A stretch of DNA of 53,693 nt, from assembly GCA_902590705.1 (NCBI GenBank), contig CACIXU010000010.1, positions 1 through 53,693 on the forward strand. The letters are read 5' to 3'. Made by a program: the position numbers and the translations under genes. The notes below the pieces were generated by a model, which worked only from the letters and a program-made list of their open reading frames with translations, was not told where the DNA came from and made no database searches. Origin of the DNA: an uncultured Bacteroidota bacterium (GTDB lineage: Bacteria; Bacteroidota; Bacteroidia; Flavobacteriales; Flavobacteriaceae). Each line of letters begins with the position of its first letter. Position 1 is the first letter of the stretch. Shown here piece after piece: positions 24,459-30,347 of the stretch.

Positions 24459-26774
24459 TTGAAAAAGACATTACCATTACTTTCTTTTTTAGCTTGTTTT
24501 GCTCTAGTTTTTGGTGTAAAAACTTATTTTTTACTTCAACCTAGAAGTGAAGTATCTGTTTTGGAAAATGAATTTGATGATTCCTTTGAAAAAAACATAT
24601 CAATACCTGAAACTGTTAGTTATAATTTTGATGTAAAGCCAATTCTTTCAGATAAATGTTACAAGTGCCACGGGCCAGATCCAAATTCAGTTCAAGCAGA
24701 TTTTAGATTAGATATTAGTGAAGACTGGTATCGCATAAGCATGGAAAATGATAATAAAAAGATTATTAGTTCAGGCGATCTCTCAAAAAGTGAGTTAGTT
24801 GATCGTATCAGATCCACACGCGCTTCTCATCAAATGCCTCCTCCAGAATCTAATTTAGTCTTATCAGAACGTGAAAAGCTAATCATCGAAAAATGGATAA
24901 CTCAAGGTGCAAAATGGGAACCTCATTGGGCTTATATTTCCCCCTTAAAAATCGAGGGGAAAATTGATTCTAAATGGAATATTGATAAATTTATTTTACT
25001 CGAGTTAGAAAAAAAAGGCTTAAATATCTCGAATGAAGCTCCAAAGGAATTACTCTTAAGAAGGCTTTATTTTGATTTAATTGGACTTCCTCCCACATTA
25101 GCTCAAATAAATCAATTCCTTCAAGATAAAAGTGAAAGTGCATATGAGAAGGTAGTCGATAAATTACTTTCCTCTCAAGCTTATGGAGAGCGAATGGCCT
25201 CAATTTGGATGGATATTGCTAGATATGCAGACACGAACGGATATCAAGATGATACCGAACGAACAATGTGGCCCTGGCGTGATTGGGTGATTCACGCCTA
25301 CAATAAAAATATGCCGTATGACCAATTCGTAACCTGGCAATTGGCAGGTGATCTACTACCTAACGCAACCAAAGAACAAATTTTAGCAACTGGATTTAAT
25401 CGTAACCATATGATTACCCAAGAGGGAGGGGTTATTGAGGAAGAGTATAGAGTTGAATATGTAGCTGATCGGACCGTTACTACAGCTAAAACCTTTATGG
25501 GCCTTACAGTGGAGTGCGCAAGGTGCCACGATCACAAATATGATGAAATAAGTCAAAAAGATTTTTTTAATTTATTTGACTTTTTCAACCGGATTGATGA
25601 GGATGGTAGAATTTCTTATACTGATAAAGCACCAAAACCAAATATTAAGCTTGATCACAATTTGATAAAAGAAAAACTTCCTTTTATTAAAATCCCAGAC
25701 AGTATAATTGAACTTGATCTTATGGTAATGAAAGAGGCTGATAACCTAAGAAAAACTTATTTACTTAATCGAGGAGCATATGATTCTCCTACAGATATAG
25801 AACTAAATGGAAGTATGCCATCGGTTATTTTACCTTTTGATCAAAATTTTGAAAAAAACCGTTTAGGACTTTCAAAATGGCTATTTGACCCTAAAAATCC
25901 AATCACATCAAGGGTGGCAGTAAATAGGCTTTGGCAACAGTTTTTTGGAATTGGTATTGTTTCTACACCATCTGACTTTGGAAATCAAGGTGCATTACCG
26001 ACTCATCCTAAACTTTTAGATTGGTTATCAAGAAAATATATTGAAGAGAGTTGGAATACTAAGAAAATGATTAAAAGGATTGTTATGTCAAAGACTTACA
26101 AACAATCCAGTAAGCCAACCCCTTTTAAATCAAAAATAGATCCTAAAAATTATTATCTTTCTCATTTCCCACGTCAAAAACTAACTGCAGAAATGATTCG
26201 TGATAATTTTTTGGTTAGTAGTGGGCTATTTGTTGACAAAGTAGGTGGTCCAAGTGTTAAGCCATACCAACCTCCTGGTCTTTGGGATGAATTAACAGGA
26301 GGAAGTACATCAAATTCCCTTAAACGTTATAAAATGTCAACTAATGGCAATCAATATAGAAGAAGTCTTTATACTTATTGGAAGAGAACAGCCCCCCCAC
26401 CAGGAATGATTACATTTGACGCTTCAACTAGAGATTATTGTACGGTTGAACGCCAAAAAACAAGTACCCCGCTTCAATCACTTGTTCTTCTAAACGACCC
26501 TCAAGTTCAAGAAGCAGCAGAGTATTTAGCTACAAGTTTATTATCTAAAGAATTGAAATCTCACAAGGAAAATATTATACATATCTATCGAAAAATTACT
26601 GGAAGATCACCTCAGAAAAAAACTTTAAATTATTTGATTGATTACAGAAAAGAAGTTGAAAAAATACACTTACAAAAAGCGGAATCGTTGGATAAGTTTG
26701 ATATTCGAAATAAAGTATACACCTCACTATCATTATTGATTTATAACCTAGATGAAACATCACAAAAAAGTTAG
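24459..26774 (+). CDS. PSD1 / planctomycete-type cytochrome c protein (DUF1549-DUF1553)
   Basis: Exported protein of 771 residues; the family's function is unknown. Translation probably starts at TTG, giving MKKTLPLLSFLACF, a signal peptide or membrane anchor. A planctomycete cytochrome c domain follows with heme motif CYKCH at residues 67-71 and a distal HQMPPPES methionine. The DUF1549 region contains a second CxxCH, CARCHDHKYDEIS at about residues 353-365. The DUF1553 region in the C-terminal half includes VAVNRLWQQFFGIGIV, PSDFGNQGALPTHP and PLQSLVLLNDPQVQEAA. Such proteins are abundant in Planctomycetes and occur in some marine Bacteroidota, nearly always beside a DUF1501 gene, as here (3-base gap). 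Two heme sites suggest an electron-transfer or heme-linked oxidoreductase role in the periplasm. Confidence 0.9.
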   Translation: MKKTLPLLSFLACFALVFGVKTYFLLQPRSEVSVLENEFDDSFEKNISIPETVSYNFDVKPILSDKCYKCHGPDPNSVQADFRLDISEDWYRISMENDNKKIISSGDLSKSELVDRIRSTRASHQMPPPESNLVLSEREKLIIEKWITQGAKWEPHWAYISPLKIEGKIDSKWNIDKFILLELEKKGLNISNEAPKELLLRRLYFDLIGLPPTLAQINQFLQDKSESAYEKVVDKLLSSQAYGERMASIWMDIARYADTNGYQDDTERTMWPWRDWVIHAYNKNMPYDQFVTWQLAGDLLPNATKEQILATGFNRNHMITQEGGVIEEEYRVEYVADRTVTTAKTFMGLTVECARCHDHKYDEISQKDFFNLFDFFNRIDEDGRISYTDKAPKPNIKLDHNLIKEKLPFIKIPDSIIELDLMVMKEADNLRKTYLLNRGAYDSPTDIELNGSMPSVILPFDQNFEKNRLGLSKWLFDPKNPITSRVAVNRLWQQFFGIGIVSTPSDFGNQGALPTHPKLLDWLSRKYIEESWNTKKMIKRIVMSKTYKQSSKPTPFKSKIDPKNYYLSHFPRQKLTAEMIRDNFLVSSGLFVDKVGGPSVKPYQPPGLWDELTGGSTSNSLKRYKMSTNGNQYRRSLYTYWKRTAPPPGMITFDASTRDYCTVERQKTSTPLQSLVLLNDPQVQEAAEYLATSLLSKELKSHKENIIHIYRKITGRSPQKKTLNYLIDYRKEVEKIHLQKAESLDKFDIRNKVYTSLSLLIYNLDETSQKS

Positions 26775-26777
26775 GAT

Positions 26778-28244
26778 ATGGAGGAATTAAATAAATACTT
26801 TTTGAATAATAATCGTCGTCATTTCCTAAAAAATATTGGATTTGGAATAGGAGGTCTTGCACTTGGAAGCATGTTGGATCCTTTTAATTTAGCTGATTCT
26901 AATAAAATGTCTAAGCTCCATTCAGGATCATTACCATTACCTCATTTTGCTCCTAAGGCAAAAAGGGTTATATATCTTTTTCAAAGTGGAGGACCGTCAC
27001 AATTAGACTTATTTGATTACAAGCCTTATCTGAATAAATTTCGTGGTATAGATTTGCCAGATTCCATCAGAAAAGGGCAGAGATTGACTGGAATGACTTC
27101 AAATCAAAGTAAATTTCCAGTTACAGGTAGTATTTATGACTTTAAACAATATGGTGAATCTAGGGCATGGGTGAGTAGCTTAATGCCCAATGTTTCAAAG
27201 ATAGTCGACGAATTATGCTTTGTTAAATCTATGCACACGGAAGCTATCAATCACGACCCTGCAATAACTTTTTTTCAAACTGGTTCACAGCAACCAGGTA
27301 GGCCAAGTATTGGCTCATGGATGAGTTACGGCTTGGGTAGTCTTAATGATAATTTACCCTCATTTATTGTTCTTCTTTCAACTGGGAATGGAAAACCTCA
27401 ACCACAGCCGCTATATTCAAGACTTTGGGGTAATGGATTTTTAAGTTCTCTCCATCAGGGTGTTCAATTCAGGTCTGGTAAAGACCCAGTTTTATATCTT
27501 CAAAACCCTGAAGGTGTCTCAAAAGAAGAGCGAAGGAAAATGCTTGATCATTTAGCAGTGATTAATGAGACTCAGGAGAAATCCTTTGGAGATTCTGAAA
27601 TAAGTAGCAGAATTTCAAATTATGAAATGGCCTATCGTATGCAGACATCTGTTCCTGATGTAATGGATATATCCGATGAGCCTGATCATATCCTACGAAT
27701 GTATGGCAAGAACTCATACAAACCTGGAACCTATGCAGCAAACTGTTTGCTGGCGAGAAGATTAATTGAAAAAGATGTACGTTTTGTTCAGTTATATCAT
27801 ACAGGATGGGATCAACATGATAATCTACCATCTCAAATTAGCCGTCAGGCTAAAGACGTGGATCAAGGGACTGCTGCACTCATTATGGATTTGAAACAAA
27901 GAGGCCTTTTGGAAGACACTTTGGTAATTTGGGGTGGAGAGTTTGGAAGAACTAATTATTGTCAAGGAAAATTAACTGACATAGACTACGGTAGAGACCA
28001 CCATCCACGCTCATTTACGATTTTTATGGCGGGCGCTGGAATTAAACCTGGATTTAGTTATGGTGAAACTGACGATTTTGGATATAATATTGTAAAAGAT
28101 CCAGTTCATGTTCACGATTTACAAGCAACTATTTTGAATCAGTTTGGAATAGATCATGAAAGAATGACATATAAATTCCAAGGGAGAAGGTTCCGATTAA
28201 CGGATGTTCATGGAGAGGTGAAAAAAGAGTTATTAGATATATAG
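26778..28244 (+). CDS. DUF1501 family protein, Tat-exported
   Basis: Protein of 488 residues, a member of the DUF1501 family, which is structurally related to the sulfatase/alkaline phosphatase superfamily; no activity is established. The N terminus has a twin-arginine signal NNRRHFLKN (Arg13-Arg14) followed by the hydrophobic GFGIGGLALGSML. It is therefore probably exported folded, perhaps with bound metal. Family segments are IYLFQSGGPSQLDLFDYKP, MHTEAINHDPAITFFQTGS, GWDQHDN and WGGEFGRTNYCQG, with YGRDHHPRSFTIFMAGAG near the C terminus. Conserved Asp and His residues in these segments could bind metal. It is the middle gene of a three-gene unit, 3 bases after the PSD1 gene and 9 before the next. 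Confidence 0.92.
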   Translation: MEELNKYFLNNNRRHFLKNIGFGIGGLALGSMLDPFNLADSNKMSKLHSGSLPLPHFAPKAKRVIYLFQSGGPSQLDLFDYKPYLNKFRGIDLPDSIRKGQRLTGMTSNQSKFPVTGSIYDFKQYGESRAWVSSLMPNVSKIVDELCFVKSMHTEAINHDPAITFFQTGSQQPGRPSIGSWMSYGLGSLNDNLPSFIVLLSTGNGKPQPQPLYSRLWGNGFLSSLHQGVQFRSGKDPVLYLQNPEGVSKEERRKMLDHLAVINETQEKSFGDSEISSRISNYEMAYRMQTSVPDVMDISDEPDHILRMYGKNSYKPGTYAANCLLARRLIEKDVRFVQLYHTGWDQHDNLPSQISRQAKDVDQGTAALIMDLKQRGLLEDTLVIWGGEFGRTNYCQGKLTDIDYGRDHHPRSFTIFMAGAGIKPGFSYGETDDFGYNIVKDPVHVHDLQATILNQFGIDHERMTYKFQGRRFRLTDVHGEVKKELLDI

Positions 28245-28253
28245 TTTAGTTTT

Positions 28254-30347
28254 TTGGAAACATTATTTGAAATAGTAAAGTATTTAGGTAAATTCCACCC
28301 TTTGGTTTTACATCTCCCAATAGGCTCATTGTTAATGACCTTTCTATTGTTTGTCATCTCAAAACTTCAAAAATCGTCTCTTGATAAAGCAATACGTATA
28401 GGGGTTGATTTTTCATTTTTAGGAGCTCTAACCGCAACGATACTGGGGTATTTTTTATCATTAGACGACACCTACGATATTGAAAATCTCAAGTCCCACT
28501 TATTTGCGGGTCTGATTACCCTCTTTTTAACTTTTAGCTTGTGTATAAGTCATCGATTACAGGGGAAGGAAAATCTTTTTATTAGTTTGTTTGTAATGAC
28601 TCTTATCGCATTGTCCATTACAGGTCATAAAGGTGCTATGATTACTCACGGTGAAGATTACTTAGTTCCTGAAGCTTTTTTTGAAGAACCAAAAGTTGAA
28701 AAACTTAAAGACAGCATTCATCTTTATGAAAAAGTGGTAAGTGTGATTTTGGAGGATAAGTGTGTTAGTTGCCATAATGCATCCAAAAGCAAAAATAACC
28801 TTCGATTAGACAGCTATGATTTGATGATGGAAGGAGGCAATCTTGGAAGTCTATTTGATGAAGATCAACCTGAAAAAGGTCTTCTAGTTAAATATATTTC
28901 ATTACCAATGGAGGATAAGCTTCATATGCCTCCAAAAAATAAAGCACAATTATCCGATAATGAAAAGTGGTTACTCAACCATTGGGTAAATTCTGGTGCT
29001 TATAAAAAATCTACATATACTAAAATAGATGATGGAGATTTGCTTAAAAAACAGCTTATTTCTTTCTTGGGCATAGAAAAAAAGGTAAAACAAGCTCGTG
29101 GAGATGTATTGGCAAAATTAGTTGCAATGGGCTTTAGAATTAACGCTAATGCAATTGGAGATAATTTGCTCAAAGCAAAATTTATTAAAAATAAGTTGAA
29201 AAGTGAACACATTAAAGCTTTGACCAAAATCAAACAACAACTTGTTGAATTGGATTTAAGTAATTCAAGCTTTAACGATGAAATGGCATCAACTCTAGCT
29301 GATTTTCAAAACTTGAGGGTACTTAGGTTAGATAGAACTGCTATAAGTGATAAAACATTATCCTATTTGCATGGTAGTGAGTTGAAAGTTTTAAATATAT
29401 GTAATACTTCTGTTACATTTAGTGGTGTTTCATCTTTATTAAAATATACAAATCTCAAAAAAGTATATGCTTGGAATACATCCATTAAAGATGAAGGAAA
29501 AACTCAACTCTCAGCATTGGGCTCAGGCTTAATTAATTTTGGAACATCTAATTTATTTTCAGAAAAACTAAGCCTTAGAGCCCCTGAAATTAATTCATTA
29601 AATAACATATTTGATGACTCTACATACGTTTCGTTTGAAGAGCCTCAAATTAAAAATATAAATATTCACTTTACTTTAGATGGAAGTGAACCCAATAAAA
29701 ATTCTACTATATACAAAAAACCTATTAAATTAAACAATTCATCTACTGTAAAAGCTAAATCTATTAAAGAGGGTTGGTTAGACAGTAGTGTAGAAGAGGT
29801 AATGTTTTTTAAGAATAATAATTATGTTATAGATTACAAAGTAAAAAGCAAAACTGAAAAAAAATACTCTATAAGTCATAAGATTGATTTCACATATGAA
29901 GACAATGAGAAAGTCATTTTTGATAATAAAAAAGGATATAGAGTATACAAAGGAACTAGCATTGAGAATGCAAAGACTTGGATGGGATTTTACAAGGAAG
30001 ATTTTGTTGTTGATATTAATTTAAGGAATTCTAATAATATTAACTTTTTAACGGTCAGCATGTTAGAAAATTTAGATATGATGGCAATTTTTCCAAAAAG
30101 AATTGAAATATATGGTTTTTCTAATAACAAATGGGTCAAGTTAAATGAGAAAAAAATTCCGTTGCAGAGTCATCCAGATGAGCGTATATCTTATTTCAAA
30201 GACTTTACACTACCAGTTAGTTTGAATAATTATAATAAAGTTAGAATCATTGCGGTTAATTATCAAAAATTCCCAAATGCACCTGTCTATCAATTAAAAA
30301 GAAAAAAGAATTCATGGATTTTTATTGATGAATTAATTTTCTGGTAA
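28254..30347 (+). CDS. membrane cytochrome c-like protein with LRR-like, Fn3-associated and discoidin-like regions
   Basis: Multi-domain protein of 697 residues with no characterised relative that I recognise. It probably starts at TTG (METLFEIVKYLGKFHPLVLHL...). Residues 1-130 hold about four membrane helices and resemble a DUF2231-type membrane domain. One cytochrome c-like motif, CVSCHNA, is at residues 170-176 with HMPPKNKAQL after it. Residues about 310-430 contain leucine-rich-repeat-like units (VELDLSNSSF, LRVLRLDRTAI, LKVLNICNTSV). Residues about 450-525 look like a chitobiase/Fn3-associated domain (FTLDGSEPNKNSTIYKKPI). The C-terminal 150 residues look like a discoidin-type beta-sandwich. 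It is the last gene of the PSD1-DUF1501 unit and could be its membrane anchor and ligand-binding part. Confidence 0.82.
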   Translation: METLFEIVKYLGKFHPLVLHLPIGSLLMTFLLFVISKLQKSSLDKAIRIGVDFSFLGALTATILGYFLSLDDTYDIENLKSHLFAGLITLFLTFSLCISHRLQGKENLFISLFVMTLIALSITGHKGAMITHGEDYLVPEAFFEEPKVEKLKDSIHLYEKVVSVILEDKCVSCHNASKSKNNLRLDSYDLMMEGGNLGSLFDEDQPEKGLLVKYISLPMEDKLHMPPKNKAQLSDNEKWLLNHWVNSGAYKKSTYTKIDDGDLLKKQLISFLGIEKKVKQARGDVLAKLVAMGFRINANAIGDNLLKAKFIKNKLKSEHIKALTKIKQQLVELDLSNSSFNDEMASTLADFQNLRVLRLDRTAISDKTLSYLHGSELKVLNICNTSVTFSGVSSLLKYTNLKKVYAWNTSIKDEGKTQLSALGSGLINFGTSNLFSEKLSLRAPEINSLNNIFDDSTYVSFEEPQIKNINIHFTLDGSEPNKNSTIYKKPIKLNNSSTVKAKSIKEGWLDSSVEEVMFFKNNNYVIDYKVKSKTEKKYSISHKIDFTYEDNEKVIFDNKKGYRVYKGTSIENAKTWMGFYKEDFVVDINLRNSNNINFLTVSMLENLDMMAIFPKRIEIYGFSNNKWVKLNEKKIPLQSHPDERISYFKDFTLPVSLNNYNKVRIIAVNYQKFPNAPVYQLKRKKNSWIFIDELIFW

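Follow-up and report, generated by a model that had tools for sequence, protein, structure and literature searches.

Organization of the locus

The window analyzed here comprises 53,693 nucleotides of DNA from an uncultured bacterium of the Flavobacteriaceae (Bacteroidota; GenBank assembly GCA_902590705.1, contig CACIXU010000010.1). It is one entire contig (G000:C10) of a 1.93-Mb genome that is 83% complete. Positions 24459-30347 of the + strand are occupied by three head-to-tail open reading frames with intergenic gaps of 3 and 9 bases, exactly as the initial annotation of this DNA had it. The products are an exported protein of the PSCyt1-PSCyt2-PSD1 type, a DUF1501 protein and a membrane cytochrome, the first and third being cytochromes by prediction. 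The three very probably form one complex. The genes and their domains are arranged as follows.

24459..26774, + strand: gene 1, 771 amino acids, predicted TTG start; exported PSCyt1-PSCyt2(DUF1549)-PSD1(DUF1553) protein with a hydrophobic helix (residues 7-26) at its N-terminus (open reading frame, Pfam)
24657..24848, + strand: predicted haem 1 of gene 1, in PSCyt1; C67xxC70H71 with Met126-Pro127, the likely axial Met (Pfam match; invariant in 28 of 28 proteins)
25515..25529, + strand: predicted haem 2 of gene 1, C353xxC356H357 within PSCyt2 (CxxCHxH conservation)
25857..26636, + strand: PSD1 (DUF1553) domain, including the stretch that aligns best to DUF1800 (Pfam, 311 bits; hhalign)
26778..28244, + strand: gene 2, 488 amino acids; DUF1501 protein with a twin-arginine motif at residues 13-14, by alignment related to alkaline phosphatases and sulfatases (Pfam, 521 bits; hhalign)
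28254..30347, + strand: gene 3, 697 amino acids, predicted TTG start; predicted membrane cytochrome with leucine-rich repeats and a carbohydrate-binding-like tail (open reading frame, AlphaFold2)
28296..28649, + strand: DUF2231-like four-helix membrane domain of gene 3 with invariant H15, H20, H82, H125 and H132 (AlphaFold2, alignment)
28761..28937, + strand: predicted haem c of gene 3, in PSCyt1; C170xxC173H174 with Met225-Pro226 (Pfam; invariant in 23 of 23 proteins)
29112..29549, + strand: leucine-rich repeats of gene 3
29574..30344, + strand: tail of gene 3, CHB_HEX_C/Fn3_assoc and F5/8-type, homologous to the C-terminal domains of the glycoside hydrolase family 20 (GH20) beta-hexosaminidase BT0459

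The CxxCH motifs lie at residues 67-71 and 353-357 of gene 1, where the initial annotation had placed them, and at residues 170-174 of gene 3. The PSCyt2 domain of gene 1 and the leucine-rich repeats and GH20-type tail of gene 3 were absent from that annotation. The ratio of nonsynonymous (dN) to synonymous (dS) substitution rates is 0.05-0.25 for all three genes when compared with two congeners. This low ratio and the conservation of the CxxCH motifs in relatives argue that the reading frames and motifs are not due to chance.

Conservation of the three-gene unit

Gene 3 has at least 404 relatives, the best 80 of which were taken as a set; besides one Verrucomicrobia metagenome-assembled genome (MAG), one Thalassobius MAG and one untyped bacterium, all are from Bacteroidota. 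The relatives of gene 3 include Dyadobacter, Echinicola, Pedobacter and others. At 64 of the 80 loci both PSD1 and DUF1501 are found within 5.5 kb of gene 3 and on its strand. The initial annotation was open to refutation by a third gene that is not conserved beside the pair; in this Bacteroidota-dominated set it is conserved there. The remaining 16 loci have DUF1501 only (3), PSD1 only (1), a sulfatase and an asparaginase (3), an asparaginase at a contig end (1), a PSD4/DUF1552 pair (1) or other surroundings (7, five of them cut on the left). Within the genus of the source organism, 17 loci were taken out of 21 other genomes, and gene 3 adjoins DUF1501 in all 17. PSD1 is visible in 15 of these, the other two contigs ending within DUF1501, so that PSD1 is out of view there.

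The search was also made from the side of PSD1, which was found in 49 of 395 sampled Bacteroidota genomes, the source genome included. Neighbourhoods were taken at 60 places from 46 of the 49 matching genomes (the best per genome, a further 13 picked for a short frame, and a single extra place). For the source genome, the PSD1 loci were those in the window, L006 and L007, and G271 was left out; G306 and five low-scoring PSD1 places were added later on account of their low score. Among 69 unfused PSD1 genes (63 loci), 65 adjoin a DUF1501 gene and 42 have gene 3 no more than 6 kb downstream.

Gene 3 is shared with other partners as well. In L153, L160, L175 and L255 it lies beside a sulfatase and an asparaginase-type hydrolase, and in L139, which is cut by the contig end, beside the asparaginase-type hydrolase alone. 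These five loci form the sister clade of the window gene 3 (Shimodaira-Hasegawa-like approximate likelihood-ratio test, SH-aLRT, 99) in a tree calculated by a quick method from 67 of 159 sequences. Their genes are arranged into an operon of sulfatase, exported Asparaginase_2-type hydrolase and long gene 3 (L153:2497-9103, L175:3-6469, L160, L255:2417-9005 and the cut L139). A DUF255-type protein precedes it in L153, L175 and L255, and SusC/SusD-like genes follow it in L175, both named by eye. The operon looks suited to glycans that are sulfated and asparagine-linked. In several Bacteroidota loci an exported NHL propeller protein of about 340 amino acids, of twin-arginine translocation (Tat) type, is inserted between DUF1501 and gene 3 (for example, L055:11978-13003, with 38 further matching frames in the fetched loci); it is not present in the window.

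In G519, a genome of the sister clade, gene 3 and a PSD1-DUF1501 pair occupy two separate loci, as might be expected if the neighbourhood in the window were accidental and the three genes formed no functional unit. The 64 loci of 80, and two kinds of fusion described below, make such an accident extremely improbable, and the partnership of the three genes is a firm, well supported result of the sequence comparisons. The G519 pair lies near a sulfatase-modifying-factor-like gene, which was named by eye.

A thioesterase and a glutamine cyclotransferase are found downstream of the trio in the window. The upstream neighbours are taken to be glyA-like and clpB-like genes.

Fusions of the membrane domain

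Seven proteins (L274, L276-L280 and L094) are single DUF2231-PSCyt1-PSCyt2-PSD1 chains, each followed by DUF1501. The fusions in L274 and L094 were identified by Pfam, and those in L276-L280 by purpose-built models and alignment. Because the low-scoring places were chosen for their low score, the seven are a non-random sample. In L094 a fused pair and an unfused trio are located in tandem, and L275 retains two PSCyt1 domains.

The second kind of fusion is found in the source genome itself. At L257:6678-10328, DUF2231-PSCyt1 is joined to PSD3-PSD5-PSD4-PSCyt3-PSD2, and a DUF1552 gene overlaps the fusion by four bases; the whole region, L257:6678-11671, corresponds to G000:C2:144677-149670. There are 17 such loci (the source genome, 15 from the genus and one from the family), 16 of which have the fusion as one open frame, the L271 copy being split. 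Three of the 16 run to the contig end. DUF1552 adjoins 14 of the 17, and the remaining three end at the contig end. PSD4 was found in only one of 390 sampled Bacteroidota genomes, that of the source organism, and the PSD2-5 fusion may therefore have come by transfer. Each fused group forms one clade on the quick tree. An unfused counterpart of the L257 fusion is seen in Imperialibacter (L207:3457-8353), where a PSCyt1-PSD3/5/4-PSCyt3-PSD2 protein, DUF1552 and gene 3 are consecutive. An extra DUF2231 match in a 949-residue frame (G134:C1:1165855-1166226) is possibly another fusion.

According to the initial annotation, gene 3 ties the PSD1-DUF1501 pair to the membrane. This is borne out by the natural fusions of its membrane-cytochrome domain to both PSCyt2-PSD1 and the PSD2-5 module, which are stronger evidence for the tie than the co-occurrence that the annotation had proposed as a check.

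Structure of the predicted cytochromes

Gene 1 matches PSCyt1, PSCyt2 and PSD1 with 46, 297 and 311 bits, respectively (curated cut-offs 22, 29.8 and 28.5), and its AlphaFold2 model has a predicted local distance difference test (pLDDT) score of 78 and a predicted template-modelling (pTM) score of 0.83. The N-terminal CxxCH is present in 143 of 148 PSD1 proteins and the CxxCHxH in 145. Both CxxCH motifs and the Met-Pro of PSCyt1 are invariant in an alignment of 28 PSD1 proteins, and C353, C356 and H357 are found in every one of the 14 rows aligned with the fused clade included. Among gene-3 proteins, CxxCH occurs in 139 of 140. Loss of these motifs in homologues, which would have spoken against the initial annotation, is thus rare. 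The CxxCH motifs, the conserved PSCyt1 Met and a maturation gene of the source genome, for a cytochrome c assembly protein, identify genes 1 and 3 as predicted c-type cytochromes.

The AlphaFold2 model of gene 3 (pLDDT 80, pTM 0.40) has predicted membrane helices at residues 20-39, 44-69, 76-101 and 106-132. Four histidines of this region, H15, H20, H82 and H125, are present in 140 of 140 gene-3 proteins and the fifth, H132, in 139. Judging from the order of the helices, all five should lie together, at the end of the bundle that connects with the haem domain. The DUF2231 model (PF09990) matches the window gene 3 with 14-18 bits, under its curated cut-off of 26.4. It passes in four fused relatives (27-44 bits); of two unfused proteins scanned, one scores 23 and the other is not listed. 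General DUF2231 proteins were compared at 28 of 30 loci, two being skipped, with L302 among the 28 plainly in the wrong frame. H15, H20 and H82 are kept in 26 of the 28, and all five histidines in two, one of which is a gene-3 protein (L310). The first three are thus common to DUF2231 at large and the full set is rare there, suggesting that H125 and H132 mark the haem-linked type.

Gene 3 further matches PSCyt1 with 36 bits and CHB_HEX_C_1/Fn3_assoc with 47/46 bits. An assignment of gene 3 as a GH20 beta-hexosaminidase is rejected, since the C-terminal domains alone match and the catalytic TIM barrel is absent.

The DUF1501 protein

The DUF1501 match of gene 2 (PF07394) has 521 bits against a cut-off of 27. 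The initial annotation described the protein as Tat-exported. An RR-x-F-L twin-arginine motif at residues 13-17, with R13 conserved in at least 98% of the 156 aligned relatives, and the TatC of the source genome agree with this; the NCBIfam Tat model does not, scoring 13 on gene 2, below the cut-off of 16.7.

Residues H159, D345, H347, E388, F389, R391 and D432 are present in all 156 aligned DUF1501 rows. A profile comparison of DUF1501 with sulfatases (hhalign, Prob 94.8%, E 5.4e-8) covers 104 columns near the C-terminus and leaves the N-terminal half unaligned. Matches to gene 2 in the PDB are weak (E at least 0.086), and 14 of 15 are from the alkaline phosphatase superfamily. By these alignments DUF1501 is related to the sulfatases and appears to belong with the alkaline phosphatase superfamily. 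Sulfatases of the formylglycine type carry the modification motif C/S-x-P-S/A-R (CxPSR-type). This motif is absent from both the translation and the conserved columns, and gene 2 is rejected as a formylglycine sulfatase.

Substrate and proposed mechanism

Modules of glycan type occur at several positions in these loci. Laminin_G_3 is present in both long PSD1 proteins scanned, and L274 has a sub-threshold Glyco_hydro_2_N match. The long form of gene 3 accompanies a short PSD1 in 17 of 24 cases and a long PSD1 in none of 15 (p 7.4e-6; truncated genes excluded, kinship uncorrected). In L095 and L096 gene 3 has the tail itself and is also immediately preceded by a separate small gene of the tail type (L095 was checked by Pfam). 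The complex often includes a module of glycan type, whose position shifts between gene 1 and gene 3. In the source genome two of the three PSD1-type DUF1501 loci, the window copy not being one of them, are situated among sulfatases, and sugar dehydrogenase- and isomerase-like genes are found near one copy (matches below cut-off). The same genome has 59 sulfatase-family matches, clustered, about one per 33 kb. The substrate is probably a glycan; that it is sulfated is possible, if on balance doubtful.

In the proposed mechanism, gene 3 would be the membrane subunit, its five histidines clustered at the membrane face that bears the c-type haem domain. Gene 1, which in relatives forms one polypeptide with gene 3, would dock on it and contribute two c haems, haem 1 being Met-ligated and haem 2 having no universally conserved sixth ligand. 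Gene 2 would be the substrate-handling partner of gene 1. The carbohydrate-binding module, located in gene 3 here and in gene 1 in some relatives, would hold the substrate, for which an oligosaccharide bearing sulfate or an amino sugar is probable. From the anatomy of the proteins, oxidation of the substrate would most likely send electrons by way of the c haems to the five-histidine site, with its haem b (or metal), and on to the quinone pool. Transfer of electrons to the membrane is somewhat favoured, and the whole reading, an inner-membrane-anchored periplasmic redox-hydrolase complex acting on (perhaps sulfated) oligosaccharides, has about an even chance of being correct. The initial annotation had proposed a periplasmic oxidoreductase or hydrolase complex that would pass electrons to the membrane; its conserved unit, its conserved haem motifs and its membrane tie are the parts that the comparisons support.

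Electrons might instead flow outwards, from quinol to the five-histidine site and the c haems, with haem 2 activating oxygen or peroxide for oxidative glycan cutting in the manner of a lytic polysaccharide monooxygenase. In the 14-protein alignment of both PSD1 clades H357 is the sole invariant histidine and there is no invariant methionine (H71 and M126 are nearly invariant), which would suit such a haem. It would also suit this direction that PSCyt genes are commoner in epilimnion genomes, inversely to glycoside hydrolases, as stated in the accessible part of PMC5615132. However, no catalytic distal residue was identified, and H156 and H359, which are invariant within the unfused clade, could ligate haem 2. 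Outward flow is judged quite unlikely.

Probable relation to DUF1800 proteins

DUF1800 loci were taken for 30 of 56 listed matches, with 25 proteins aligned for the motif check and 30 used in a larger profile comparison. DUF1800 lies beside (upstream of) DUF1501 in 29 of the 30 loci, and in the source genome the DUF1800-DUF1501 pair is next to sulfatases. The fused PSD1 clade and DUF1800 give a co-linear match (hhalign, Prob 93%, E 2.9e-7). Its score is 61.6; the best of 60 column shuffles reaches 27.2, the reversed profile 19.9 and 60 block shuffles 56.2. The match weakens to E 6e-5 without L281, and unfused or mixed PSD1 alignments give P 0.0037, P 0.0012 (the larger, window-protein-led comparison) and E 1.4e-4. 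The PSCyt2-PSD1 core and DUF1800 probably share common descent. The source-genome pair, at L006:2135-5169, and the second PSD1-DUF1501-gene 3 operon of that genome are about 8 kb apart, with sulfatases between.

None of the 25 aligned DUF1800 proteins has a CxxCH motif. DUF1800, which shares the DUF1501 partner and is probably related to the PSD1 core, is thus haem-free, and haem need not be central to the activity. The working core could then be hydrolytic and haem-independent: DUF1501 and its partner of DUF1800/PSD1 fold would cleave a substituent from a glycan or an envelope polymer, or transfer it, the haems and five-histidine domain merely anchoring the unit or sensing redox state or gas. 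The association of gene 3 with plain hydrolases (sulfatase, asparaginase) in relatives fits the same explanation. However, nearly all PSD1 and gene-3 proteins retain the haem motifs, and the fusions keep the haem domains, L275 even two PSCyt1, so that a purely hydrolytic core is rather unlikely.

Like the haem-free DUF1800 proteins, a number of further observations weigh against the redox-hydrolase complex or parts of it. For 27 of the 69 unfused PSD1 genes no gene 3 was seen nearby, and only one of the 27 is short of sequence. The dN of gene 3 exceeds that of DUF1501 in the congener comparison. The Foldseek and VIA-align rows listed for gene 3 concern its leucine-rich repeats and tail, with no cytochrome b fold match to the five-histidine domain, and the sole hint of a cytochrome b is a sub-threshold b561 match on the L257 fusion (E 0.013). 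The DUF1501-sulfatase alignment carries no shuffle control, and DUF1501 proteins of the DUF1800 type reach only P 0.005 against sulfatases. No sulfatase match is present on the window contig, and a simple search found a sulfatase in the loci of only 10 of 68 PSD1 genes. No report of a substrate, cofactor or activity was found for any member of these families.

A role in envelope assembly or secretion, rather than catabolism, would agree with the accessible part of PMC5122149, in which some bacteria have DUF1800-DUF1501 pairs that accompany chitin synthases, and with the type IX sorting tail, a match below cut-off, of the DUF1501 protein in the L006 pair. The glycan-type modules, the sulfatases near two source-genome copies and the sugar dehydrogenase- and isomerase-like genes point instead to catabolism and leave an envelope role very unlikely.

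Comparison with known systems

Several parts of the arrangement are already in print. PSCyt2 genes with a conserved neighbour of unknown family, in a sulfatase neighbourhood and with no known function, are described in the accessible part of PMC5615132. PMC4452313, in its accessible part, cites the DUF1501 gene clusters of Kamneva 2012, and DUF1800-DUF1501 operons are reported in that of PMC5122149. The PSCyt2-PSD1 loci of Verrucomicrobia and Planctomycetes (PMC5615132, PMC4452313) resemble the trio in the gene 1 domains, the conserved neighbour, the sulfatase neighbourhood and the carbohydrate-binding domains. Unlike these loci the trio is found in Bacteroidota, and the membrane third protein, the fusion and the DUF1800 relation are unmentioned in the accessible parts of both papers. 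The DUF1800-DUF1501 pair (accessible part of PMC5122149) shares with the trio a DUF1501 partner with a twin-arginine motif and a probable remote homology to the PSD1 core, but its DUF1800 lacks the haem motif. In the open-access literature, no paper was found that describes the membrane partner, the fusions or a relation to DUF1800.

The function proposed for the trio resembles that of LacABC, a periplasmic glycoside 3-dehydrogenase, in being a membrane-bound oxidation of sugars in the periplasm (PMC9007349, accessible part). As a glycoside dehydrogenase of the LacABC type the trio is rejected, Pfam finding no dehydrogenase domain in the three genes. The formylglycine sulfatases align with the C-terminal part of DUF1501, which differs from them in its missing CxPSR-type motif and unaligned N-terminal half. 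The C-terminal domains of the GH20 beta-hexosaminidase BT0459 (6q63) match the tail of gene 3, which is without the catalytic domain of that enzyme.

Taken more broadly, and tentatively, one five-histidine DUF2231/haem-c membrane module may be combined, by operon or by fusion, with exchangeable haem partners (PSCyt2-PSD1, PSD2-5/PSCyt3) and exported hydrolase-type partners (DUF1501, DUF1552, a true sulfatase) into modular glycan-processing redox machines, and PSCyt2-PSD1 and DUF1800 may have a common ancestor, with haem lost or gained in their descent.

The membrane part offers a way into protein families that have no known function. With the membrane partner, the two kinds of fusion, the five-histidine signature and the probable DUF1800 link, what was an unknown pair of genes becomes a defined, predicted complex, one that would be amenable to purification, to haem and quinone-reduction tests, and to deletion in culturable Bacteroidota.

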